Assembly: GCF_032854445.1 (NCBI RefSeq)
Contig: NC_088303.1
Span: 34,789,501-34,853,500 of the forward strand
Length of the DNA stretch: 64,000 nt
From: Liolophura sinensis
Lineage: Eukaryota; Mollusca; Polyplacophora; Chitonida; Chitonidae
Reading direction: 5' to 3'
Under the pieces are notes generated by a model. That model was not told the DNA's origin, did not search any database, and saw only the letters and a list, made by a program, of their open reading frames with translations. Position numbers and translations under genes: made by a program. Below are positions 20,869 to 60,744 of this stretch, in pieces; the first letter of the stretch is position 1, and each line of letters begins with the position of its first letter.

Positions 20869-22110
20869 GTATAAATGCAATAGTACATTCTCTACGTTTA
20901 CCCTCGGGTTATCAACTACACCGACAACGAAAGACAGGCTTTTGTCGTACTGAATGGTGACGCCCTCCATTACACATGGATGATTACGAAACCCGCTTAT
21001 CACAAGGGCCGTTAGACAGCCGTTAATCAGCCGCCCCAGATTTTGTTTGCACAAATCATACTACATGTAGATTAAGGCGCTGCTAATGTTAAAAGTCTGA
21101 TAATCCGGCACACAATAGCTCAGCACACTTGAGATTCTGTGGAGGCGAGGACTGGTGCTGTCACTGGGGCACGCACAGTAAATGTACCTGGTATACGATG
21201 GCCTGATTTATCAGTGTGAGACACAAGTTTGTTGGTCAAAACTCGGCATAACATGAGTAAGTCATAGTGTTTTCATGAGTCCTTTCAGTAAGAGACTCAA
21301 CTTTTTTTTTTGTTTTATTATTTTTTTGTGTGCTAATTATCAATGTTCTGGCAATTCTATATTTTAAAAAACAGTGTTTTGGTCGTGTTGTAATTCTGTT
21401 TCATAATCTAAATATTTTTGCTTTGAAATACAACCTTGTAGAAAGTAATTCAAGAAAGTATTCTTTATAGTAGATTGTGTAGTACATGTATTCTGACGTT
21501 GGACAAGTGGGCTGTTTCTCTGCAGATTTGTCATTTGTCAATTGCTGGCCCACAAAACTGACCTGCTGACAATTAGTGTTTGACAGTAGGGCTCTGTACG
21601 GCATAATACAACCTACTAGTCTTTTCTGCTATCAGCGCTTCTCCTAGCTTCTCCACCTCGGGCACATCTCTATTCACAGCAGGATACCCACCGATTGTGA
21701 AAAGACTGATTTTTGAAAGGCCGCAGACCAACAAGTGCTATTGGACCGGATCTGCACAGTCAAGCATGTCGCGCAAAGCCCCTACTCATCGCCATACAAA
21801 AACAACCTGAATCTGGATCCAAGCTCACATTCAGGTTTTCAGGTCATTGGGATAGTTTGAGAATATCGCGCTACCTGCGTTTCCAGAAAGTGGCTACTTT
21901 TGCATTCTCATTCCGCTTGTTGTGTGTGTCCACAGTTGTAAGACTTTTCCTAGGCTTGGACGTAAGGCAGGTAAATAGTAGGCCTACTACTTGAATATCG
22001 ACTTACTAATAGGGCAGAAAAACTTCAGTCGAGAACAAGCTCGAGAATCGAGCAAATCGGTGGAGAAAGACACTGTTCCGCGTGATTGGGAAAGGTATTT
22101 CAGAACCAAA

Positions 22111-25100
22111 ATGGCCAAACTATTATTTGATATCATCTTATTTCTGGCTACCCTTCGGTTCTCGTCTCAGGAAGAAGCTGTGATTCCAGTACCGATAGCA
22201 GATGACGCCATAAGACCGACTTCCGAACCCAATCTGGCGCCGATGCAAGTCACAAATAAGTCCGACGTCGCGCCTATGGTGATGACGAAATTTGTGAACG
22301 GAATGACGTTAACAATGGCGTCTAATTTTATTCTTGTTTATATGGATTTGCCAACAACAGTAATTTTTAATTATTCTCTGGATTGTTCCAAAGCCAACAA
22401 CGATTATGGCATTCTCTTTTCACTGTCAAACTATTACGTGGCATCAATTTCCAGCTCTCAGCCTGTATTCATCCGCGACGTCAAGTCCAACTGTCGGCAG
22501 CTGGGTGAAGCGTCAGGGGAGGTAAGCGTGACATTGACAGGAATTCTGTTGGGACGCGTGGAGCTGGAGATTGACGTTTATCCTGGAATGACGCCTTCGC
22601 TCTACAACTCGAGTAGAGTGACCTACAATGAAAAGACTACTGACGACAAGAGCTACCAGTATTCGAAACATTCACCCTCCCTGACTTACATGTATGACGG
22701 TTACAACCTGTCCAGATGGGTGGTGCAAGGGTCAAATTCATCATCTCCCGCCAAATTAATGATCGTCTGCATGAAGAAGCCGACAACACTGGACAGCGTA
22801 CTGCAGAGCACCATGATGGTGTACTTGGTGTTAGTTATGACAGCCATGGGGTGTAAAACAAAACTGGAAGTGTTGAAGCAAGTATTTAGGAGACCGGTGG
22901 CGCCGTGCATCGGACTCTTCTGCCAATTCATCATGATGCCAATGGTAAGAACCAGTTTTTGGTCACGTGCAAAACAGTTGTAAATAAGGAAGGACACGTA
23001 GGAAATTGTGAAGTTTAGCTTGCTGTTATTGTTTGTAGTGGACCCACTTCAACGATGTTCCTCAGTTGTGAAAAAGGAGGTTCTTCAATGAACTCACTTC
23101 ATAACTTTTGCCACATGACCAAACCACCAACCTAAACTTTACAACCCCATGATTGGTATAGTCACTCGTATCTACATCATATCCACCAACATTGCCACAG
23201 ATTACAATATTGACACTCGCCTTTCCTCTTGCTCTACTATCAATGTTCGCATAACTGCATGTTATGGGTTTCCGCTTAATTTAATTTTCACATTTTTTGA
23301 CATTCGTTGTTCATTACAGAGGGTGGGCGAGTATAAATTTATGGTCTTCTCTGAAAGTCCGCATGCATGGCGATCGAATTTAAGGGCTTTCCTGTACCCC
23401 TTCCAGAAGGGAGTTCTCCGGCCCTCTAAAAGGGAAGCAAAACTCATGAACAGCAGAGCCCTCTTCCTGCTTGAATAGCAATATGCGTTATCATTATACG
23501 TGATTGTTGAAATCACTAGTAGTGTTATTCATATAAGTAGAGTACACTGCTGTTTCATGAGTTGCATGGTTTGTTTCCCTTTGTAGAGGACCGGACATCC
23601 GCATTGGCGAAAATCAATACACATATTTTCTATTTATTACACAAACCGTTTAAGTCATGAGGGGTTTTGTTTTCCACCAATGATTCACTTCATCCGCTGT
23701 TTTGTCCGAAAAGAAAGCTCTTCAATGAAATGACGTCACGATTTCTGCTACGTTATCAAAACAACACATGTGATGTTGTATTTCAGATCGCCTATGTTCT
23801 GACCCTTGTCATTCCATTCCCTACCCCCGGGATGGCTCTGGGGTTCTTCGCCTGTGGCTGTGCCCCTGGGGGTGGGGGCAGTAACCTGTGGTCGTACCTG
23901 CTGGGAGGGGATGTCTCTCTTTCCGCCGCGATGACGACAATCAGTAACATCGCCGCTGTGGGTAAGTCTTTGTAATATGACAGTTTTCCCGGCTGGGTGG
24001 ATACCTAGTGAACTGAATCAACCCAGGCCGTGCGTTCTTTGATTCTTTTCTGCAATAAGTAATTGTTTCTCTAAGATTACAGCAGAAAATATTTACACAG
24101 CGTGGAGCCGGAAAATGGTCCCCATGAAGCATTGTAGGCCAATTATGCCGTACTCAAAACGTTTTCACATGTATGACGATGAGATTTAATGGTATAGAAA
24201 GCCAGGACCAGCCCGAGAGATATCAGCGCAAAAATATCCCACGATTTGCCTGACAAACCTCGTGCGGGAGTTGGATTCGAACATTTACCCTCATTGATCA
24301 TGGACAGCTCGTCTTCTCGTACAATCCATTTCACGACTGGGCCGATATCAGAAACTAGAACCAATTAACTTTTAAGGGCAACTCGATGCAATATTGAAAC
24401 ACATTCTTCAGCCATTCTCTGCTGTGATTGCACATATCAGAGACTGAACTGTGGTTCGTGAATTATGGGTAAGGGTTAGCCAGGAAGGAATGTATAATGT
24501 AACTCTAAACAAATATGTTAAACTTAACACATTAACATTATGTTATGTGAGCAATGATACAACAGATTATGTTACAGCAACAATGCAATGCAATGTTGCA
24601 CCAACAAAAAAATTTTATTTGGAAAACGCTAAAATCGGTACTATAGTCGATTTTGCCTTCACTCAGAAAGCATAGCATTCGGTCAATTTAACAGATGAGT
24701 TTTTTGAATTTCGCAGCAAGAAAGTTCATCTTGTGGTGATTTTCAGGTTTATGGCTTTGGGTTGGATTAAAGGTAAACAAAAGGATCCGCAGTGTAAACG
24801 TAATAATGTGAAAAGCTCATGTTAAAACAACCCCTTTGTTAAGATATTCTTGAATTGTCCACACATCAAAAAGTTTACATGTTGTTTACTTTTAACAATC
24901 CCGCTCATTTTGTTTTCAGGAGTATTTCCGTTGTGGATATTCACACTAGGTCGCGTGGTTTTGTCCGACCAATCAGATTTGAAAATTCCATATCTGAACA
25001 TGATTGTCTCCCTTCTGATGGTGGCCATTCCGCTGGCGATCGGAGCGATCCTGAACCACAAAAAACACGCGTTTACCAAGAAAATGCTGCGATATCTCAT

Positions 25101-25578
25101 CCCGATTGTGGTGGTTTTGACCATTGTGTTCATAGCCTTGGCCATGTACGTCAATTTTTACATGTTCAGACTGATAGAGCCGATACTGATATTGGCCGGA
25201 GCGCTGTTGCCTTACATAGGGTACGTCCTAGCCGGGCTCTTGGCTTTGGTCTTCAGACAAAGTCGAAAGTTCTGTATTACCATAGCCATAGAGACAGGCA
25301 TCCAAAACGCGACCATCGCCTTCATCCTCGTCATGTTCTCCTTCCCTCCTCCCGACAATGTGATAGCCGCCACTCCCGCCATCGCCTCCTCCAGTATGAC
25401 AGGGATTCCCCTGATAATCATAGCAGCCATATATCATTCGTACTTACGCTGCTGCAAGAAAAAAAGGGATGAAAATTCGGACGACGAGAAAGAGAAAAAA
25501 CACCAAGAGGTAAAGAAAGAAATGGGTAAGTCCAGTGAGAAAGAGGCCATGTTAGAAGAGAAAGTTTCCTCAGTGTAA
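22111..25578 (+). CDS. SLC10-family sodium-coupled solute (bile-acid type) transporter, 3 coding exons, 555 aa
   Basis: Coding exons are 22111-22944, 23787-23961 and 24920-25578 (TAA stop), with phases 0 and 1 closing at GT-AG sites. The start at 22111 has a good context (AAAATGG) and is followed by a signal-peptide-like stretch (residues 1-18); an upstream in-frame Met at 21991 lacks this. Residues 20-225 form a long extracellular region with NXS/T sites at N49, N87, N166, N199 and N209. Membrane segments begin near residue 229. Family hallmarks are Q272 (CQF..MP), GGGGSN with S310/N311, and ETGIQN with E461/Q465, matching the Na1 and Na2 ligands known from NTCP and ASBT. The 40-residue tail is rich in Lys/Glu and probably cytosolic. 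The long N-terminus resembles SLC10A3/A5 rather than the classical bile acid carriers. The family call is firm; the substrate is unknown. Confidence 0.93.
22945..23786 (+). other. SLC10 gene intron 1
   Basis: GTAAGA donor and TTTCAG acceptor. A repeat-free stretch; no additional exon is supported. Confidence 0.8.
23962..24919 (+). other. SLC10 gene intron 2
   Basis: GTAAGT donor and TTTTCAG acceptor. The segment at 24460-24680 is AT-rich with repeated TTAAC/AATG words and a spurious 74-codon open frame. Confidence 0.8.
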
Positions 25579-35600: not shown

Positions 35601-38426
35601 CTTTTCCTATGATATTCAGCCTTGTTCAGATTCTTGATATCCTGGAAACCTGCAGAAAACACAGCCGAATACAGTCCAGTTCTGAATACAAAATCTACAG
35701 TGAAATAAATTCAATATTGATCACCCTTAGCATATTTAAATTAATATATTGATAGTCAGGACTTGGATCTCTGCAGACAGGGAGTTTCATAACAGTCCTG
35801 AACAGTTAATGTACAGGGTGTCCCAGAAATCGTGCACCATCCAGGTTGAGGTTGAATGCTTGAGCGATGTGTTGCCCCATCTCTTCCAAACATAAAAACC
35901 AATTCAACTCTTCTTGTACTGTTAGTTTATTAGCCATAATTAACTCTGCAAGAGAGAAAAAAAAAATTAAAATCAGAATTAAATCTGAAACACAGAAAAA
36001 ACATGAAAATCAGGATGGTGCAGAACTTCTGGGACACCCAGTACATTCACAGGGCCGGCGGAATGTTAAGGAATTTGAGTGAGGGGCGTGGCAGCTTCTG
36101 TATATCGTTTTCCCTAAGCTGAGGATTGTCATTACGAAATAAAATCACGAAGTGTCACTTTGTAGGGTTTTAATGTGGAACGACTCTCTATGAACTTTCA
36201 AGATTTAAAACAGAACTGTAAGGTATAAACAACCTATGGGAGAATTCAAGCTAAAATTTACAAAAATGTGAAAAGGTAAGAGTTGCTGAGGCTGAAATGT
36301 GGAATGACTTTCTAGAATATGTTTACATTCTCTATAACTTTATAAAGTTTCAAACAGAATGTTACATGAAGGCTACAAGCATTTTATAGGAACATTATGC
36401 ATACAGAAACTCAACAATTCTTACATACTAGTACATTTTCATAGTTGCAAATATGTTCATTTTCTGTATTTCCACCTTAGGGATGATAAATATTTTGGTC
36501 AGCCATGAATTACCTCCCTTCGCCTGAGACTGCTCATGGTTCTTCCTTTTTTCACGAGCCAGTAAAGAGGACAAGCGCTTTTTATTCCTTAAATCATCGT
36601 AGTCTCTCACCTGAAATAATTCAGTTCTTCTGAATTTGGGAATCTGGGTAAAAAGTGTTCTTTAATAAAATAAGCTTAATAAAGTGTGGGCATAGTGCAC
36701 TAAAGTTAAAACTAAACTTAAGTTTCTGTTTAGGTACTTGAAATGAATCGCAAACTTACTATACTAATACATATTAAATCTAAAAAAGGGGGGCATGTTA
36801 CAGTTTTTTTATAAAATGTCAGAATAACTTTGCAAAAAACATGTACTGAAATTCATTCAGTCCGTCCATGTCATAAGACATTGGAACATGCCTCCACACA
36901 GAATGTTAACATAATAAATTAAATGGTTTTGTCATTTTGAAATAGGACAAAAATTACGATGAAAACCGTTTAAACGTACTCGTTGCTCATGTATTTTTCG
37001 TTTTTCTGTGACTTTCCTTGCTCTTTCCCTCAGTAAGGTTCTGGCCATATCTAAATTTGCCACAGAACCACTTTCAATTCGAATCATTATGTGCTGAGCA
37101 TCAGAAATCATTTCACGACCCTGTAGCTTTATGCTACACTCTGTTTTCTTCCTGATTTCCTGAAAACCCTGTCCACATTTTCCAATTAAAAAACCAATGT
37201 AGTCCCATGGAAGGTTTAGCGCCAGGACAGTTGTCAGCTTGTCATTTTTCGAATTTGTACGACATGTGGGATATGTCTGATCAAACTCTGAGTTGACTAT
37301 CTTTGCCAGCATGACAACCAGTCTTTTCAATCCATCTTGATTCACAATTTCAAGGGACTTAAAACTATCCAGTAAGACTTTCGCAGAATGACTAGAAAAA
37401 ATATTTTCTTTGTCCAGTCGGCCTTGTCCAGGATCCAACAATTTTTGGACTTGAGTGTATGACTTGGAGAATTCATGGTCAATGAAGTCACAATCTGTAA
37501 AAAAAAAAAAAAAAAATAATGATAATAATAAATAAATAAAAGTCAGAATTAAGGATATATAATACGGTAAATTCCATATGGCACTATATTAAATCTCTTA
37601 CATTTTTTGGTAATGTTTAAATACAGCTTTCTAAGTCAGAAAAGACGACTGGGAGTAAGGTGAATTAAAATTAAATAAAAATTTATTTTTTCACCATAAC
37701 AATGGTTATAGCCATTTTATTCTTATATTTAACATATCCTGACTTTAGGTGTTTAGAAATCCCTTTCATATACATGTACATTACAAACCTCATAAATTTA
37801 TTTGTGGACTCAAATTGTTTAAGGGCCTTGCCATCCAACCCATCTGACAAGTTCTCCAGTAAGGCGTAAGCTTAGCCATGAAGTCGTGTGTTCGAATCCC
37901 GCTTATGCCGTTTTGGCTAAGTCTTTGTCATTTAGGCGATTGCCTTACTGGCTTTGGATGTTTCCTCTTGTCGATCTCTTTCCAATTTCTTTTCCCTTGT
38001 CACCATCAAATAATTAGTTATTCTCGATTGTGGCGCATAATCCACTTATTCGTATGCTTAATTTAGACCTATACGATGGTGGGAGGAACTTGAAAGCCGG
38101 AAAGAGCCCGGTAGACACCCATGATACGGAGAGGAAGTCAGCATGATCTGACCGCGACCGAATTCGTGAGAGGCTCCTAAATTAATGTGCTGCGCTGGCA
38201 AAGCTTTACCACACGGACGCCTTTACCCCTAGTACTAATATTGAAAATACAAAAATATGAATAAATGCTAACCTTGCGCTGACTGGTCTTTGTTTTGACA
38301 GGTACACAGAATCCCGCCGATCCTGGCTGACTGAGAGTGTGTCAATTTCCCGGCTCTCCTCAGCTGATTGAGGACAAACTCAAGTCGACATCTAAAGCGA
38401 CTTCCATGCTTCAAACAGTTCTCCAT
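32647..38426 (-). CDS. KH-like domain protein of unknown function, 5 coding exons, 321 aa
   Basis: Coding exons on the minus strand are 38426-38273, 37494-36980, 36610-36514, 35649-35583 and 32779-32647 (TAA). Phases 1, 0, 1 and 2 all close at GT-AG sites. The ATG at 38426 is the first in-frame Met after an in-frame stop, has a good context (ATCATGG), and lies 3' of a plausible 5' UTR acceptor at 38478-38479. Residues about 138-205 look like a KH RNA-binding fold: hydrophobic strand, then G156-K-C-G159 in the loop, then FQEIRKKTECSIKL. Residues 1-137 are mostly helical with no family I recognise. The C-terminal 120 residues are very basic and polar (for example KRLSSLLAREKRK), fitting nucleic-acid binding or nuclear location. 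I do not recognise the protein. RNA binding is inferred from the KH-like pattern only. The least certain junctions are the GTTAGC donor at 38272 and exon 3. Confidence 0.7.
33873..34491. mobile_element. Foldback element (long inverted repeat) 2
   Basis: The arm at about 33873-33975 is matched in reverse complement by about 34391-34491. Shared words include 'GGCTGTGATTAC', 'TACTATCAC', 'TTGTTTCATAAG', 'TTACCTTGAACACCTCT' and 'TGCTGGCTTCA'. Loop of about 415 bp, no coding potential. Lies in the 35582-32780 intron of the KH gene. Confidence 0.8.
35170..35297 (+). mobile_element. SINE-like fragment, second family
   Basis: The 3' portion has 'GGGCATGGTGTTAAACACTA' followed by ATTAAAT, similar to other SINE ends here. 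The body is diverged. Confidence 0.4.
35814..36041. mobile_element. Tc1/mariner-type MITE with TA target duplication
   Basis: Terminal inverted repeats of about 30 bp begin CAGGGTGTCCCAGAAATCGT on the left and, on the opposite strand, CTGGGTGTCCCAGAAGTTCT on the right, each continuing to GCACCATCC. TA dinucleotides flank the element at 35812-35813 and 36042-36043. The interior is AT-rich, 228 bp overall, with no transposase. The 'GGGTGTCCCAGAA' terminus is typical of mariner-like elements. Sits in the third intron of the KH gene. Confidence 0.88.
37499..37517. repeat. Poly-A tract (poly-T on the KH gene strand)
   Basis: On the KH gene strand this T run forms an exceptionally strong polypyrimidine tract just before the exon 2 acceptor at 37495-37496. 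Confidence 0.9.
38060..38222 (-). mobile_element. Main-family SINE, degraded, tail deleted
   Basis: Contains 'GATGGTGGGAGGAAC', 'GAGAGGAAGTCAGCATGA', 'GTGAGAGGCTCCTAA' and 'ATGTGCTGCGCTGGC' in family order, with internal deletions. Ends just before KH exon 1. Confidence 0.65.
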
Positions 38427-43650: not shown

Positions 43651-43658
43651 CGCCTTCA
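43651..43658 (-). other. Consensus splice donor overlapping the CARD gene stop codon
   Basis: The minus strand reads GCAGGGT|GTAAGTGA, with the last codons TGT AAG TGA. Used as a donor it would leave one base, the same phase 1 as all other introns of this gene, and would remove the stop. No downstream acceptor exon with death-fold character was found as far as 38.4 kb. The nearest coding exon there (KH exon 1) cannot join in phase. Confidence 0.4.
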
Positions 43659-46600
43659 CTTACACCCTGCCTTCAGCTCTTTGCTGCTGTTCTGTAACTG
43701 CTGCGCTACGGCGTTTAGCCCCACACTGGCCAAACCTTCACAAAATATGTAAAAACCTTCATCAGGGAGCCGCGGCATTAATTTGAGAAGCTTTTCACTC
43801 CTCTGTGAGGAAGACGGTTGTTGTCGGAGCTCTGTGGCCATAGCGATGTCCATAAAACCTCTCGAGTAAAGTAGGTCAATAACTGGAAGTGTGTAAATGA
43901 GTTGCCCAAGAATCACGTCCTTGTTCCGTTTCAGCACCTCCCTGTGAATGGCAGACATCTTGACGAAGGCATCTTCAGCTGATCGTCCGCTCGAGGAATC
44001 TGATAAGAAAGAAACAGACCGTTATTTTCTTATACTGGAAATGTTTTGTGAAAATAATATCGTGCAGCTTTGCAAGGAATCAGCAGGAGATGAAAACGTG
44101 TAATATTGTAATATTATATGAAATGCAGCAACACGCAAAACTGGAGGTAGACTTAAATCATGCGTACTCTGTCGCTCCACTGTTCACGAAAAATTGGAGG
44201 AAATATTGCTTTAACACTGAAATGATCAATTCGGGAAACCTCAATGGCTCAGAAAACAAATCGACTACGTGTAGCCTAGCAACCTGGACTCATTTCACAT
44301 CGATGGAAAGTCGTAAGAAATGGAATTCATGGTAAATAAGTGGGATGTTTTAAACGTCAGGCGCTAACTTATAGTTTGGTGTCGTGTGTTGGTTTGGAAA
44401 CACAATATCTACTCACCGTTAGAGTGGACTTTACCGGGAGAGAAGTTTCCTTCAGCCCTCGAGGAATTATTTGACGATCCACCCGTTGACGGACAGGCGT
44501 CTGTGAAGAGAGAAATACTGATGGTAAACTTTCAGCCTGAATCTGAGATGTAATTAAATTGAAGGTAAACACGAAGAAAATCTAGTATGCCATGTGAAGG
44601 TATGGAATAAAGTTCCTGTATGTTAGCAGCGTATGTTATTTGCGTGAGTGAGTGTGTTTAAAACATTGCTATAATCAGATTTAATCGTTGCTTGTATAGT
44701 CATCTTCATGACACTTTTATAAATCTCAGCATAAGCATACACTCAATTATCAAAGCCCTAGTAGCCTATCCCCAGTGCATTCGTATCTTACGTTCACAAC
44801 AGTACTGTTGAAAGCTTCATATCTTTTAGCGAATTTTCTGCGTATATTCTGCTTTTGATGCGAAAAATTTTAACCTAAAATTAGTCTTTATAGTATAGAT
44901 TGGTGTAGAAACGTTTGACGGATAACTGAAGTAACTTACTTTCTGGCGATTTTCCCGTCAGTTTCAGAATACTTTCGATGGCAATGAGAATATCCCGTGA
45001 ACAGTGACGTAGCTCTTCCGTCACGACATTTCTGACGTCATCAACTGTGCGCGTCAAGTCTTCTTGGGTGAATTCTTTCTTCCTCTGTGTAACCGGCACC
45101 GTGGTGTCATCCAGGTCGATGAATCCGGAGTCGTGAAGTCTTTGTAACGATACGGTTCCTGGTCGAGGGATATAACGGGCTGAAAATGTTAAACAAATTT
45201 TTAGCTGGAGTGTTTCAAACTTGTTAACGTCATAACAATTTCTCCCGCGCTAAAGTATACCAATTAACCTCTTTAAACTAAAAACGATTTAAAACGTTTG
45301 GCTCTGTTTCCACAAAAACCGCCGTTGTTTACCTTTGTTCACCAGCAAGTATATCTAGCTGACAAAGTGAATAGATAATTTAACTGTGTATGGTGGACAG
45401 AACAGAGCATATACCTGTGCTAGTCGAGATCTACGTGCTTAGGGTATTTAGTATATTAGAGAATACACCAGAAATGTAAGAAATTACACTGGAGAGGGAA
45501 TGGTAAAATCATCACATTTTACATGCAATTTAACAATTCAAATTCCCGTCAACATCAAATTGCTCCTTTGCGGCTAAGAATTCTTTAAGGTATAGTAAAT
45601 TTCGCTTTTCTCCATAACGTTTCCTTTGTCAAAAAGCTTCGCGCTTTGCCATATCATGAACTTTGAAAAACTTCTCAAAAGTCAATAAAATACTTTTCAT
45701 CATGTCGAAATAAATTTCGGATTACTTGACTAGGTATATTTGACAGCTCAGCAATTTCATTGTTGTACCATATGATCGTGTGTCTGGGTTGAGGATATAT
45801 AGTAGGCTGCGGATCCTATTTAGCTGTCAGGCGAAAAATTCCAGAGGATGGCTATGAGCAAAAATATAAGTACGGCATGTATAAAAAAAACTTACTCGGG
45901 TTAATAAGGTCGATGGCCTGGCGAATGGCTGACGCTAGGTACTTTGGCAACTCTGTGTGATGTTCAACTATTCCCTGGGTGATCACGTGATTACAGTGAC
46001 GTAACAGCATGTGCAGAGAACGTGAGGCGGGTGTTGGGTTCTGGTAGATGACGTCATCAATCAGTTCCACTTTGAGCTCCTTTGCGCAGAAGCACCAGAG
46101 AGGAGATATTTTCTCCGAGAGACGTTTGAGAAAATTCCACTCAGAATTAACTGTAAGATGTAACAGAAAATTATTTCACACATTTCATTTCGGGGAAGAA
46201 AAGGCTCCCCAAAGAAACGCTCCGTATATATACTAAGACGTATACATATACTGGAGCCGGATAAAATAATCATATTTCTTTTGTAGCTATTAAACATCTT
46301 CCTTCTTTTCGGTGCTTAGAGCTTACGACAATGTCAACGATCTGGGATGATATCATCCACCTCATAACAAAATTGAACTTTCGTGACATACAATATAAAC
46401 GCTCATTAGCCATACGTCGTAAACCCTATCCCCCCACCTCCTAAAATTAACAAAGGCAAATTAAAACCCTGAGGCCATATTCACCTATTTCATTAACTTT
46501 CCTTATTAGATAGTCCTGGCAATAACAGGTTGAGGCATTAACGTTGGTCAGATACACTGGCCAGAAATTGTCTTCCTAAATAATAATTGCAATATTGAAC

Positions 46601-49600
46601 AAGTGTTCATTCACACGCGCAAGCACACGAACAGCTGTTTTTGTTTCACGTCGGTATGTGTTTATGCCGATACATGTGCCACATCTGTGCACCTACGATT
46701 AACTCACCTGTAAATTCTAAGTGCAAAAGCTCGCTCAGGTATCCCTTCCGGAGGCGTCCTACCAAAGCCACGTGGAGCAACCTGTCATAATCCACTCGTG
46801 TCCGCAGATATGCAATGAGCAGCCGAATCAGCTTATCTGCGCGGTTGTTACTATTTCGAATCAGCCTATCACACTCCAGCTGGTTGGGGACGACACGGAC
46901 GGCTGTGAGGTAGGTGACGAGGGCCACGGCGAGTGGGTAGTCATCAATCTCATCTACCAAGATCTGTTCATGGAGCGCCACGGCGGGGACACCTGGAAGG
47001 ATTTCATTCATAAGTTTATTTATTTATTTATCTGATTGGTGTTTTACGCCGTACTCAAGAATGTTTCACTTATACAACGGCGGCCAGCATTATGGTGGGT
47101 GGAAACCGGGCACAGCCCGGTGGAAACCCACGACCATGTGCAGTTTGCTGCCAGACCTTCCCACGTATGGCCGGAGAGGAAGCCAGCATGTGCTGGACTT
47201 GAACTAACAGCGACCGCATTGGTGAGAGGCTCCTGGGTCATTACGCTGCGCTACATTCATAAGTGAATGACTTTACAATGCAGTAATATAAACATAAACC
47301 TCGTCGGGCAACCCATTCCGTTCCGTGATTGGCCTATCATTGACTGGCATGTTAACGCCTATTGTAAATACAGTAATGTATCTCTCCTACTGATATGCTG
47401 ATGGAAGGAGATAAAGCTCCGCAGTCAACCTGCCCAGTTAAGCTTATCTGCTAATTTGGCAGGCAAATTTTTGTTAGTTCTACCCCTGCACTTCTCCGCC
47501 CATCAGCATATCAGAAGGAGAGGTTCCACACTGTCCCTTTCCCGATTTATACACCGTTAGTCTCTGAATTTGACTGTCTCATTGGAAATTAGATACAATG
47601 CTCCACATAAACAGGGTTAATAATATTATATAAAGCTTTATTGACGAGTTTAACCCGAGCTAAAAGAGATCAAAATATGCCGATTCGAAGCCGCTCGTAG
47701 TGAGATCAATTAAGTCTAAGTACCAGTGGTTTGTAGTTGTTTACAGAGACCATTGGCGTCTGATCAAGTGGCGTGGTGCTATTAGTGGGCAAGTCGGGCT
47801 TGAGGCTTAAATATCGTTCGAGAAAAGAACTTATTTGAGCTTTTGATAAGGGATAATTTGTGTACTGCAACAGCTACATACTCCTAAAAAGATGCATTGC
47901 GAGGAGTCGTTAAGTTTGCTTACATATACTGTGATTCTGGCCGGGGGTATCCACTCTGCCAAAGTGCTGCCGCTATTGAAGTATCATGCACAAAGACACC
48001 AGTTATGATACTAGTACTCCAGGCAGGTCTAATCAATACTATTTCTTTGCTCTAATCTCTCACAACTGAGTGCCAAGTACTATCTTTAAAGTCTTTGGTA
48101 TGATCTTTGGTATGAGCCTGGGTTTGATCTCAGGTCATCCGACCTCGGCTTTGAGTGTGGAATTAGGTAATACCGTTGAATCTTCGCATGTGACAAGTTA
48201 TAAGCGTATACTGGCACAACTAAGTGTCAGACAAAACTGGTGTCAGTGACTACGATCAGGAGTTTTAAAGACCGAGATTTTATCAGACCCATTAAACACT
48301 CAGGTTAGCAAATCGTAATTAAGTTGCAGTGCATGTTTTATGTATGACTAATTTTCCTAATATACCATTGTAACCAAGGTTGGACTTGGGAGACAGATGT
48401 GATAACATCTAAAGACATAAATATAAGTTACTACGTATGTATCAAGTTAGCCTACATAACAATAAGCCTTCGGCGATCTTAGTACCTCACCTATAGCTTT
48501 GCCTTTGTCTTTTGGAGGTAATGATCTAGGCTTAGACTAAAACACAACACAACAAAGTAACAATGACATGGGTCATGACGAATGAACCATGTAAGTGCAA
48601 CGACGCTGCGGTCGGCACGTCTGTTGCCATCGTCAGTTGTTGGTATGCTTCGGTTAACCTCAGGTAAAATCTGAAGGCTTCTCCAAGAGAACTGAACAAA
48701 AACACCACATCCCATGCAGTTTCGGTTTATATATTTCAAAAGTTCTCTGATAAAAACTTGCTGAGCTGCTACTCTTTTTAATACTTTGTCAAACATAATT
48801 AAGATCTAAGAATGGGCGATTGAACATGATACCAGAGACAATTTGTTCACTCCCTCCAGATGGTTTTTAAGCCTTAATAAGTATACGTCACTTCCCATTG
48901 CAAAGTTTGCCTAGATTGCTTATGGGCCTCTTACTATATTTCTGAAAGTTTTCTCTTTCACAAGCATTTTACAGTTGCTGTCACTTCTATATGAACATTA
49001 ATTACATGCGAATCTATTTCGACGTGACAATATTCAGTGGTAAGATGCGCGACGTCAGCCACGAAGCACTCGAGACCTAGTTTCATTCCCTGCCTTGGAC
49101 AAGGAATTTGTGGTTTTCTCTGTGCTGATCGAATGTATATATATGACATGAGTGACAACTGGAAATTGATGGCTCCCATAGGGCTATATTTGCAGACTTA
49201 TGTTTGTTGAAGACGACCTGTATCCGCCAATAGGGCCTTCAATTGTTTATCGTGGTACTATGCATGTACTTTGTTTGCTGGACTAATTCATATGATTGTA
49301 CATTACATGTAATGGCAATACAGTATTTTGAGCAATTCTAGACCAGTGACTTTGGACATACTGCAATTAACATTATTGCATGCATTTTCTACCGAATTCC
49401 GCTTAAGCCATGGCGCTACCGGACATGTACAGTATGAATACAATCGCAACTGAGGTAAATGGACAAGGAGCCATATTTAACTGGTTACGTTGATCATTTG
49501 CCAGCTGTCACACTGTCGTCGTTTCTCTGCTTTTCATCTGCATGCTGTAGTCTTTTATATCTGATCTCCTTGAACAACAAAACCGGTATCGATTATATTC

Positions 49601-50110
49601 GTGAAAAATTCTCGAGTATGACTTTGAACAATTACACTGTAACAAATATATAATTGCGACCTCGTTTAAATGTTAAGGAAGGAAGCAGTGGATTCAGTTG
49701 TACAGTGTGCGGCATCACGTCAGAGAAGACCAAGGGGGACATTCTTCCTAACTATAGTAAACAGAAGAAATAAACAAACATGCCAACCAGCTCTTTCGTG
49801 TCCCCTCCTTGCTGAACCAGGCCAGGAACAAAACAAATCGACCATTGCTGGATTCGAACCTTAATTCTCAATGAGGTGTGTCTATTATACTTCGGCTGTT
49901 TTCTTTCGTTCAGGTGCCATACTCTAGACCATGTGAAAGTCTATACTATACTTGTCTCTAGCGCTCAACAACATATTACACAACTTTTACGCTGTCATAA
50001 CTGATATTAAATTACGATTACAACACTTAGCTTTCACTGATCACTAGGGCTGAACGCTTATGGTGTCCTTGACGCATTTTACTTTAGCAGAACTTACCAG
50101 TGTAGGCCAT
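43656..50110 (-). CDS. CARD - death domain - CARD protein, 6 coding exons, 406 aa
   Basis: Coding exons on the minus strand are 50110-50098, 46992-46708, 46150-45896, 45179-44940, 44500-44417 and 43999-43656 (TGA). Every intron is phase 1 and every site GT-AG. Residues 5-100 (exon 2) form a CARD (RLIRNSNNRADKLIRLL, then SELLHLEF). Residues 101-185 (exon 3) form a death domain (W..LKRL, KELKVELID, SLHMLLRHC, LASAIRQAIDLI). Residues 185-265 (exon 4) are helical and unrecognised. Residues 265-293 (exon 5) are a Ser/Asn/Gly-rich linker. Residues about 305-395 (exon 6) form the clearer CARD (VLKRNKDVILGQL, IDLLYSRGFMD, SEKLLKLMPRLPDEGFYIFC). These folds pair with like folds, so a cytosolic adaptor in cell-death or innate immune signalling is inferred. 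No caspase, kinase, NTPase or membrane segment is present. Vertebrate CRADD has CARD plus death domain but not a second CARD. The start ATG has A at -3 and G at +4. A GTAAGT donor overlaps the stop, so a longer form is possible. Confidence 0.85.
44001..46707 (-). other. Introns 2-5 of the CARD/death-domain gene
   Basis: 46707-46151 (GTGAGT donor), 45895-45180 (GTAAGT), 44939-44501 (GTAAGT) and 44416-44000 (GTGAGT). All end in pyrimidine tracts and CAG. No repeat of a known family is visible. The CDS exons lie between them. Confidence 0.8.
46993..50097 (-). other. Intron 1 of the CARD/death-domain gene, with a SINE near its 3' end
   Basis: GTAAGT donor at 50097; CTTCCAG acceptor ending at 46993. 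Between the SINE (47016-47253) and the donor no exon is supported. The open frame at 48491-48796 has no family features. Confidence 0.75.
47005..47264 (-). mobile_element. Main-family SINE with target site duplication, next to a splice acceptor
   Basis: Target duplications CATTCATAAGT lie at 47005-47015 and 47254-47264, around a body at 47016-47253. The element runs minus with its tail at 47016, the same orientation as the CARD gene. It lacks the tRNA-like head beyond 'GTCATTACGCTGCGCT'. Only 23 intron bases separate it from exon 2 (starts 46992), so branch-point sequence may lie in the SINE tail or the duplicated target. Confidence 0.93.
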
Positions 50111-57600: not shown

Positions 57601-60078
57601 TTACGCAAATTATGTAGATAGGCGATGACAAGTTCATTAAATATGAAATCGAATTCAACATGTAGTTCAGTGCCTATAAAAGTCTCGCACGGATATGTCA
57701 AGGGAAATACAAGTTATTTAAGTCGATCTATCCATGTTACGTGTTTCGTATGTCTTCAAGAATTGAGGGATTATTTTTTATCATTGTTCAAACATTTGAT
57801 TCTGCGACGTATTTTATGAAATGTGAAATGAATAAAATTTTGGCAGGGTTGCGACTAATTGTCATCATTCCCGAAGTGTTTTAAACTATGCATTAATCTG
57901 GAGTTTTATAAACAAGAATCAAATAAAGTAAATAAATTAATTAACCACTGCTTAAACCCGATTGTTTATATTATTCACGATGGCTTGCAATATTTCATTT
58001 ATATCCCTTTTTCTTGCGAACTGATAATATATCATGTGCTTGGACGTCGGGCAATTACCTACACTTACACTATCAGTATAGCGCAAGCTAAAGGTTTCGG
58101 ACAGCTGCCAAGTAGCGTATTTGTTGAAGAAATAACTATATGCTCCTCCCATTATGTGGACTACATCTAGTCTTAATTATTGATGTTCACCTACCAGGTC
58201 GTCCCAGCAAGATTAGTCTCCCCTTCTTATCTCTTTTGGGGAGTGTAAGATAGGACCTGAAAGAACATCGGTAAGCACACTTAACGAAATGCACACTTAA
58301 CGAATTCAGGTGAATGTAGAGCGCATTATCTTCGATCGAAATATCACTTAAACAAAAAGACATTTTAACTTTTATGAAAGTTATTAAACCCACATATAAA
58401 ATCTCAGAAATACATGATATATATGAGAAATCAGCAACTTCCTAATTCTTTGAGCTCATTACTCCTTTTGAAGCACTTCCAAAACTTACATTTTCCAAAA
58501 ATATATTAAATATCATAGTCAATAATCAAGTTTTACGAATTTTACAAAGATTTAATGGGCTTAATTTCCCCTGAGATTATTACATAACTAGAAGCGGTTT
58601 GAGATGAAACAGTTTACGTAATGTAGAATGTGTTGGTGTATGCACCCTTTACCCATTTTCCAGGACTTTCTGAATAGCTGGGTCGTGGGTATCTATATTC
58701 GCCAACCAATCCGGGTACTTCGTCCGCGTCGTCCAGTAATGGTCGATAGCTTGACGTGCAAACACTTGACTGAACTTACGCATGCGCAGAAAGGACAGGA
58801 GGAATACGGCATCTGAAAAATTTACCAAAAAAGGATTTATTTACAGATAAACATATGAAAAGCTGAAGTTTATTCTATTGCTGGAACATGCGCTTTGGCA
58901 AGTTTTAAACCAGATTTCATTCTTGCTTTTCAAAATTACTCTGTTGCTATTTTTTAAATAGCTGTCACAAAAATACAGTATACATAATAAAAATAAAGGG
59001 AAAACTTATATTGCAGTTCTTAAATATATGACCAAATCATAATGGTCTCACGTGGACGGCCAAATCTACCCACACCAAACCTACCCACTGGCGTCTCACA
59101 CCAAACCTACCCACAGGCCTCTCACATCAAACCTACCCACAGGCGTCTCACATCAAACCTACCCACAGGCGCCTCACAACAAATCTACCCACTTGCCTCT
59201 CACACCAAACCTACCCACAGGCCTCTCACACCAAATCGACCCATATGGGTCTCTCACAAAATCTATTGGCGTACAACACTGAACCTACCCACGGCGTACA
59301 TCACCAAATCTGCACAAAGGCGTCTTACACAAAACCTAACTTCTGATACCATCTCATACCAAACCTACCCACGTACGCACACGAAATCTAACCATGGGCG
59401 TACAACACCAAACCTACCTACGGGCGTACAACACCAAATCTATCCACATGCGTACAACACCAAATCTATCCACATGCGTACAACACCAAATCTATGCACT
59501 GGCATAGAACACCAAACCTACCCACGTGCGTACAGCACCAAATTTATCCACAGGCGTACAACATCAAATCTATCCAGAGGCACACAACACCAAACCTACC
59601 CACGGGCGTACAACACGAACCTACCCAAGGGCATATAACACCAAACCTACCCACGGGCGTACAACACCAAACCTACCCACGGGCGTACAACACCAAACCT
59701 GCCCAGGGGCGTACAACACCAAACCTGCCCACGGGCGTACAACACCAAACCTACCCACGGGCGCACAACACCAAACCTACCCACAGGCACACAACACCAA
59801 ACCTACCCACAGGCGTACAAAAACTAACCTATCCACACGCGTACAATATCAAACATACCCAGGTGCACAAGACATACCCGTTGGCTTAAAGCATCAAACC
59901 CACCCATTGGTGTTCTTAGCCAGCTCTTGTGACTCCGTATCCATCTCCGGAACTCTTCCAGCTGACTCTCTCTTTCCGAAGGAATCTCATTTAGGTCTCT
60001 CTGAGCAGTTTTTATTGATTCTTCATCGAGGGTGCAGACGTACTTATTTTCTTTGACCTTGTCAATCTGAAATGCCAT
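54610..60078 (-). CDS. CRAL-TRIO lipid-binding protein, alpha-tocopherol transfer protein/clavesin-like, 7 coding exons, 334 aa
   Basis: Coding exons on the minus strand are 60078-59904, 58812-58653, 58256-58195, 57484-57285, 57079-56969, 55813-55693 and 54785-54610 (TGA). Phases 1, 2, 1, 0, 0 and 1 close at GT-AG sites. Residues about 20-80 are the CRAL-TRIO N-terminal helical domain (LDEESIKTAQRDLNE, RRWIRSH, then DAVFLLSFLRMRKF). Residues about 110-275 are the lipid-binding fold (GRLILLGRPG, QIHGFVVLMDFTGM, YPIRTKEVHNYN, RPLLPEKVQKRI, LPEEYLPDDYTGPNAG). Residues 276-334 are a polar C-terminus. The family carries hydrophobic ligands such as tocopherol, retinal or phosphoinositides in a cytosolic pocket; the ligand here is unknown. 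ATG 60078 gives the normal N-terminus. Length fits the family (about 280-350 aa). Confidence 0.93.
54929..55132 (+). mobile_element. Main-family SINE, 5'-truncated, with target site duplication
   Basis: Duplications ATTATCCAGAATTT lie at 54929-54942 and 55119-55132, around a body at 54943-55118 that begins inside the family ('CCAGCTCATGCTGGCTTCC'). Plus orientation, antisense to the CRAL-TRIO gene, in its last intron. Truncation with intact duplications implies incomplete reverse transcription at insertion. Confidence 0.93.
55840..56730. repeat. Tandem array, 62-bp dimeric unit (two about 31-bp halves), in a CRAL-TRIO intron
   Basis: AAGTGAAACACTGTGT.AGCA and AAGTAAAACACTGGGTAAGC halves alternate. 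Equivalent points at 56261, 56323 and 56385 show a 62-bp period. The outer part of the array is more degenerate and monomeric. Confidence 0.9.
59049..59900. repeat. 26-bp tandem array next to the first CRAL-TRIO splice donor
   Basis: The unit is CCAAACCTACCCACGGGCGT plus ACAACA, about 32 copies; equivalent points at 59641 and 59667 give a 26-bp period. Because 26 is not a multiple of three and the unit lacks stops on the + strand, all three + frames stay open, giving false proteins of up to 198 codons. On the gene strand each unit contains GGGTAGGTTTGG. Confidence 0.95.
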
Positions 60079-60374: not shown

Positions 60375-60473
60375 GTGTAAATAAAGTAGAAAATACACAT
60401 GGAGCACTATGACTTAGATAGGCATATCTGTTCTGTGTTGTAATTCTACAGAGACATACACGTACAGTATACG

Positions 60474-60744
60474 TTTAATTTATTTTATTTATGCGATTGG
60501 TGTTTTACGGTGTGCTCAAGAACATTTCACTTATACGACGGCGGCCAGCATTATGGTGGGAGAAAACCGGGCACAGCCCGGGGGAAACCCATGACTATCT
60601 GCAGGTTGCTGCGAGACCTTCCCACTTACGGCCGGAGAGGAAGCCAGCATGAGCTGGACTTGAACTCACAGCGACCGCATTGGTGAGAGGCTCCTGTGTC
60701 ATTACGCTGCGCTAGCGGGATAACCGACTGAGCCACGCAGCCCC
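60474..60744 (-). mobile_element. Main-family SINE, near full length
   Basis: The TTTATT tail at the low end leads through 'GGTGTTTTACGGTGTGCTCA', GACGGCGGCCAGCATTATGG and GGCCGGAGAGGAAGCCAGCA to the tRNA-like head (reverse complement CGTGGCTCAGTCGGTTATCC). Same orientation as the CRAL-TRIO gene, about 400 bp upstream of its start codon. Confidence 0.92.

Follow-up and report, generated by a model that had tools for sequence, protein, structure and literature searches.

The stretch of 64,000 nucleotides from the chiton Liolophura sinensis analyzed here (contig NC_088303.1, positions 34,789,501 to 34,853,500, in the following called the window) carries a six-exon gene on its minus strand that we read as encoding a small cytoplasmic death-fold adaptor. 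According to this reading, which we hold to be moderately probable, the protein ends in a CARD that is preceded by diverged CARD-like and death-domain-like modules, the modules sit on shuffled phase-1 exons, and the protein is made mainly in its full-length form. The six exons (Table 1) encode 406 amino acids and are separated by five introns, all of them GT-AG introns in phase 1. The coordinates, strand, exon lengths and intron phases proposed in an initial annotation of this DNA, which had described a CARD-death domain-CARD protein with freely skippable exons, are borne out by these junctions and by the length of the product.

Sequence comparison with the chiton's own domains confirmed that exon 6 is a CARD, as the initial annotation had claimed. 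The genome was searched over 609,464,459 bases on 632 contigs, and profiles were built from all 20 CARDs and from 21 death domains. The latter derive from 29 death-domain matches, of which 26 were taken as loci; the profile excludes two death domains with stops, two short fragments and one near-duplicate. Such own-genome profiles are more sensitive, and each comparison was set against 5000 shuffles. Exon 6 scored 39.3 bits against the CARD profile, a value reached by none of the shuffles, and its best solved match in the PDB was the CARD of Apaf-1 (E 0.0025). When it was compared pairwise with 46 own-genome domains, the six best matches were all CARDs, the best with an E value of 4.7e-6. Besides this CARD no Pfam domain, including NB-ARC and WD40, was found in the 406 amino acids.

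For exons 2 and 3, the same comparisons are suggestive of a CARD-like and a death-domain-like module, respectively, although these preferences are weak and not decisive. Exon 2 scored 7.2 bits against the CARD profile (10 of 5000 shuffles as high) versus −1.1 bits against the death-domain profile (592 of 5000), while exon 3 scored 5.2 bits against the death-domain profile (8 of 5000) versus −0.3 bits against the CARD profile (577 of 5000). With an earlier profile build, 1 of 2000 shuffles scored as high as exon 2, and 20 of 2000 as high as exon 3. The pairwise comparisons point in the same directions, as exon 2 has CARDs in all of its six best listed matches (E 0.12 to 0.69), and death domains take the first three places for exon 3 (E 0.03 to 0.34). 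We regard these results as suggestive only, because eight exon-profile comparisons were made in all, because true members score far higher even when they are excluded from their own profile (lowest value 31.1 bits for CARDs and 22.3 bits for death domains), and because cross-matches between the families reach 11.0 bits for true death domains on the CARD profile and 8.0 bits for true CARDs on the death-domain profile. The families that the initial annotation had named for the two exons thus agree with the preferred ones, whereas the identity of the modules is not confirmed at scores below those of true members.

Structure prediction from single sequences with AlphaFold gave helical models for both exons, that of exon 2 with six helices and that of exon 3 with five; their mean predicted local distance difference test (pLDDT) values of 50.9 and 51.8 are too poor to weigh either way. 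In a tree of 17 own-genome CARDs together with exons 2 and 6, neither exon found a supported place, and exon 2 sat on a branch of 3.74. Exon 4 fits neither profile (1714 and 448 of 5000 shuffles as high), and its pairwise matches come from mixed families (best E 0.27). An origin of exons 2, 3, 4 and 6 as recent internal duplicates was rejected, as blastp among the four returned self-matches alone at E up to 10. A similarity of residues 149–237 to RNA polymerase alpha, seen in a PDB search with the whole protein (E 0.21), was taken as chance. Membership in a family of recent copies was likewise dismissed; a search of the genome at E up to 1 recovered its own five larger exons and nothing else, a miss that does not show absence.

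Table 1. Exons of the minus-strand gene and the adjoining repeat copy, with positions in the window and splice-site scores in bits. Splice-site weights are generic metazoan frequencies and were not trained on this genome.
Feature	Position	Strand	Length (nt)	Acceptor	Donor	Remarks
Exon 1	50098..50110	−	13		6.7	coding (M-A-Y-T plus one base)
Exon 2	46708..46992	−	285	−0.2	8.1	phase 1-1; module with weak CARD preference; lowest-scoring acceptor
Exon 3	45896..46150	−	255	5.1	3.4	phase 1-1; module with weak death-domain preference; lowest-scoring donor
Exon 4	44940..45179	−	240	4.5	5.6	phase 1-1; coding signal; no credible match to CARD, death domain, Pfam or PDB
Exon 5	44417..44500	−	84	7.4	5.9	phase 1-1; Ser/Asn/Gly-rich linker; good splice sites
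Exon 6	43656..43999	−	344	7.9		including stop; C-terminal CARD; best PDB match Apaf-1
SINE-like repeat copy	47016..47253					in intron 1, between the copies of an 11-bp duplication (CATTCATAAGT, 47005–47015 and 47254–47264)

The arrangement of one module per phase-1 exon looks like a habit of the CARD and death-domain class in this genome, as expected of shuffled cassettes. For the CARDs and death domains of other loci (L006–L051), we called the best splice site beside each domain within 90 nt of its edge, leaving out the near-duplicates L015 and L050 as well as two death-domain loci with stops; 24 kinase and PDZ loci served as control, two of the 14 kinase loci being left out for stops. At a calling threshold of 3, phase 1 was found at 33 of 42 CARD and death-domain junctions (16 of 20 for death domains, 17 of 22 for CARDs) versus 7 of 17 control junctions (Fisher 0.007), the counted junctions being called by a generic weight matrix and not from transcripts. 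Lowering the threshold to 2 gave 34 of 46 versus 8 of 19 (Fisher 0.016), and an earlier, wider count had given 41 of 54 versus 12 of 25. Introns usually lie in phase 1 with a share of about 0.3, and against this value the count at threshold 3 corresponds to a binomial probability of 1e-10. The apparent excess is large relative to the usual share and less sure relative to the small control. Because same-phase flanks are common at death-fold exons in this genome, the layout of the window gene needs no splicing reason, and it suggests shuffled modules rather than regulated isoforms.

Both strands of the window were scanned for exons of 60–450 nt that are open, frame-neutral, in phase 1 and flanked by splice sites of at least 3 bits each. 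Four candidates passed, and all of them belong to this gene. Three coincide exactly with exons 3, 4 and 5, and the fourth is a shortened exon 2 that starts at 46902, where an inner acceptor of 3.2 bits could be used; the full-length exon 2 is missed because of the score of its own acceptor. Coding potential was scored with codon statistics learned from loci elsewhere in the genome and compared with 1000 random open frames drawn from the whole window, genes included. Exon 2 reached 31.3 bits (9 of 1000 random frames as high), exon 4 17.2 bits (62), exon 3 15.2 bits (112) and exon 6 21.9 bits (162). These four exons score positive in the reading frame of the gene alone, save for one antisense frame of exon 2 at 20.2 bits. 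Exon 5 shows no coding signal in its own frame (−4.1 bits, 720 of 1000 random frames as high), and one of its antisense frames scores 8.0 bits. Almost no signal was obtained for exon 1 (0.7 bits, 219 of 1000).

Several observations weigh against the adaptor proposed here. On the Pfam CARD model, exon 6 reaches 21.6 bits alone and 19.2 bits within the whole protein at a cut-off of 23.9, and it is missing from the 20 matches that the CARD model gave across the genome. None of exons 2, 3 and 4 has a Pfam match; in the PDB, exon 2 matches nothing at E up to 10, exons 3 and 4 match nothing credible, and Foldseek searches with the low-pLDDT models of exons 2 and 3 returned no PDB match at E 0.001 or better. 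The phase-1 excess loses its significance at threshold 4 (26 of 32 versus 7 of 13, Fisher 0.068) and stays without it at threshold 5 (19 of 23 versus 5 of 9, Fisher 0.13), and the counts are not fully independent, as they include loci that are copies related to one another. The missing Pfam, PDB and Foldseek matches would suit a protein whose sole death fold is the C-terminal CARD, with exons 2 to 4 as lineage-specific helical modules of another kind forming a novel N-terminus, and so would the profile scores of exons 2 and 3, which lie inside the cross-family noise. We nevertheless consider such a protein rather unlikely, as exons 2 and 3 each favor the very family named initially and the low-confidence model of exon 2 is six-helical, as in a CARD. 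A lack of any death-fold match for these two exons, which the initial annotation had named as speaking against itself, is what we find with Pfam but not quite with the own-genome profiles.

The initial annotation had further proposed that any subset of the internal exons can be skipped without a change of frame. This holds on paper, since the length of each internal exon is divisible by three and both of its flanking introns are in phase 1, and no skip creates a stop because exons 1–5 each end in G or A while stops begin with T. The layout allows skipping and gives no argument for its use. Where skipping would most readily occur is indicated by the surroundings of exon 2, which is the outlier among the acceptors and adjoins the repeat copy in intron 1. 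This copy ends 23 nt upstream of the exon 2 acceptor with an AT-rich run at that end, is about 90 % identical to another copy at 60469–60714, and has 19 more aligned pieces elsewhere in the window; we infer a short interspersed element (SINE) from the dispersed copies, the duplications and the AT-rich tail. Owing to the weak acceptor and the adjoining repeat, exon 2 is predicted to be the likeliest exon skipped, if any is, which would give a product without the first module. A CARD-death domain-CARD adaptor whose frame-neutral exons are routinely skipped to yield agonist and antagonist isoforms could draw on the frame-neutral layout, on the weak sites at exons 2 and 3, and on the repeat together with the inner acceptor at 46902. 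It appears quite improbable to us, given that same-phase flanks are common for death-fold exons of this genome, that the other junctions of the gene score 4.5 to 8.1 bits, which we take as ordinary, and that exons 2 and 3 are weakly assigned to their domain families. Its most elaborate version, a three-death-fold adaptor (CARD, death domain, unknown module, CARD) whose phase-1 cassettes are mixed into isoforms tuning caspase recruitment and whose balance is shifted by the SINE-like insertion towards forms without the first CARD, we regard as very improbable.

A different uncertainty concerns the 5′ end of the gene. The frame of exon 2 extends without a stop to an upstream ATG at 47011, which makes this ATG a rival start: translation from there would give MNEILPG instead of MAYTG, and exon 1 would be non-coding or unrelated. 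The weak acceptor of exon 2 and the near lack of coding signal in exon 1 favor this start. Exon 1, however, is the sole candidate between 46993 and 56000 that combines an ATG with a phase-1 donor of at least 5 bits, and its ATG lies in a favorable context (A at −3, G at +4) with an in-frame stop upstream, so that we consider an error of this kind in our model unlikely.

Should the adaptor reading hold, exons 2 and 3 would represent highly diverged death folds, CARD-like and death-domain-like, that bind an upstream partner. CARDs and death domains generally bind their own kind, which is why exon 6 would be expected to recruit a CARD protein. The C-terminal CARD may thus engage a CARD-bearing caspase or kinase, most simply a caspase, by like-with-like stacking; homotypic interactions and CARD filaments are discussed in passages of PMC8195603. 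The layout of one module per phase-1 exon would be a relic of gene assembly by exon shuffling, as for the other death-fold exons of this genome, and the full-length form would be the main product, with skipping possible. More generally, the phase-1 excess suggests that CARDs and death domains move about this genome as interchangeable cassettes, which, if true, would make shuffling easy and explain such layouts without regulated splicing.

In the open-access literature we found no record of chiton CARD proteins in apoptosis, and among the matches listed there none of a CARD-DD-CARD or CARD-Death-CARD order; the one mollusc paper among these matches contains 'DD-CARD' three times (PMC7053062). 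For bivalves, nine CARD caspases nearest to caspase-2 are reported in the sections consulted of PMC7836458. According to passages of a 2017 oyster paper, no CARD-bearing Apaf-1 homolog had been identified in molluscs by then (PMC5550854). A small adaptor with an Apaf-1-like CARD would be a candidate recruiter of the mollusc CARD caspases.

Elsewhere in the window, an aquaporin-type (MIP) coding stretch lies at 254–967 on the plus strand (Pfam E 3.2e-53), followed on the same strand by sodium/bile-acid symporter-like (SBF) exons at 21982–25578 (Pfam E 1.3e-6 and 3.4e-7), and a KH-domain exon is found on the minus strand at 36932–37588 (Pfam E 2.4e-7). Long repetitive reading frames with units like 'NTKPTHGRTTPNLPTGVQHQTYPRA' occupy 59024–60056 on the plus strand; as judged from the reading frames, with no tandem-repeat search, they are probably a minisatellite and not a gene.

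Among known adaptors, CRADD/RAIDD is one point of comparison. Provided that exons 2 and 3 encode a CARD and a death domain, respectively, the first two modules of the window gene come in the same order, and they lie in separate open frames, as do the CARD and the death domain of two neighbor pairs found elsewhere in this genome. One pair is located at C1:33317965–33318725 (L034 and L010; 33317965 with 33318522) and the other at C7:41544095–41545159 (L035 and L022; 41544923 with 41544095), the CARD and death domain being about 0.3 and 0.6 kb apart, respectively; because of this proximity each pair is inferred to be one gene. The CARD of the C1 pair matches the RAIDD CARD with E 2.2e-11 and the death domain of the C7 pair that of CRADD with E 2.5e-6. 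For the remaining two domains the matches are poorer, with the C7 CARD reaching E 0.0034 against RAIDD and a better 4.3e-4 against an MDA5 record, and the C1 death domain reaching E 0.013 against CRADD and its best value against RIPK1 (3.3e-6). Exons 2 and 3 themselves have no RAIDD or CRADD match in the PDB, though they are too diverged for this absence to decide. CRADD/RAIDD consists of two modules and ends in the death domain, whereas the window gene goes on with a third module, which is followed by a linker and the CARD at the C-terminus. With RAIDD/CRADD-like pairs present elsewhere in the genome and the window protein ending in a CARD, we set aside the idea that the window gene is the chiton CRADD, which it probably is not. 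In Aplysia, a putative CRADD has been listed (PMC9334734).

Apaf-1, with its CARD-NB-ARC-WD40 order, shares with the window gene the CARD that is the best solved match of exon 6, but in the window protein the CARD is C-terminal and Pfam matches neither of the other two domains. The sole NB-ARC match found in the genome lies at C1:64995466–64996077, on another contig than the window gene. The nearest listed CARD on that contig is more than 30 Mb away, which does not show that a CARD is absent there, and two death-domain matches lie about 0.23 Mb from the NB-ARC match. The window gene is most likely neither CRADD nor Apaf-1. A further parallel is offered by the shuffled death folds of other invertebrates: new combinations of CARD, DED and death domain are reported for amphioxus in passages of PMC2575513 and PMC2246300, and lophotrochozoan RLRs are described with grafted N-terminal domains in the excerpted text of PMC8998645. 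The window gene would resemble them in its combination of death-fold domains; unlike these proteins, which according to the same passages carry NACHT, NB-ARC, caspase or helicase domains, it is made up of small modules alone.

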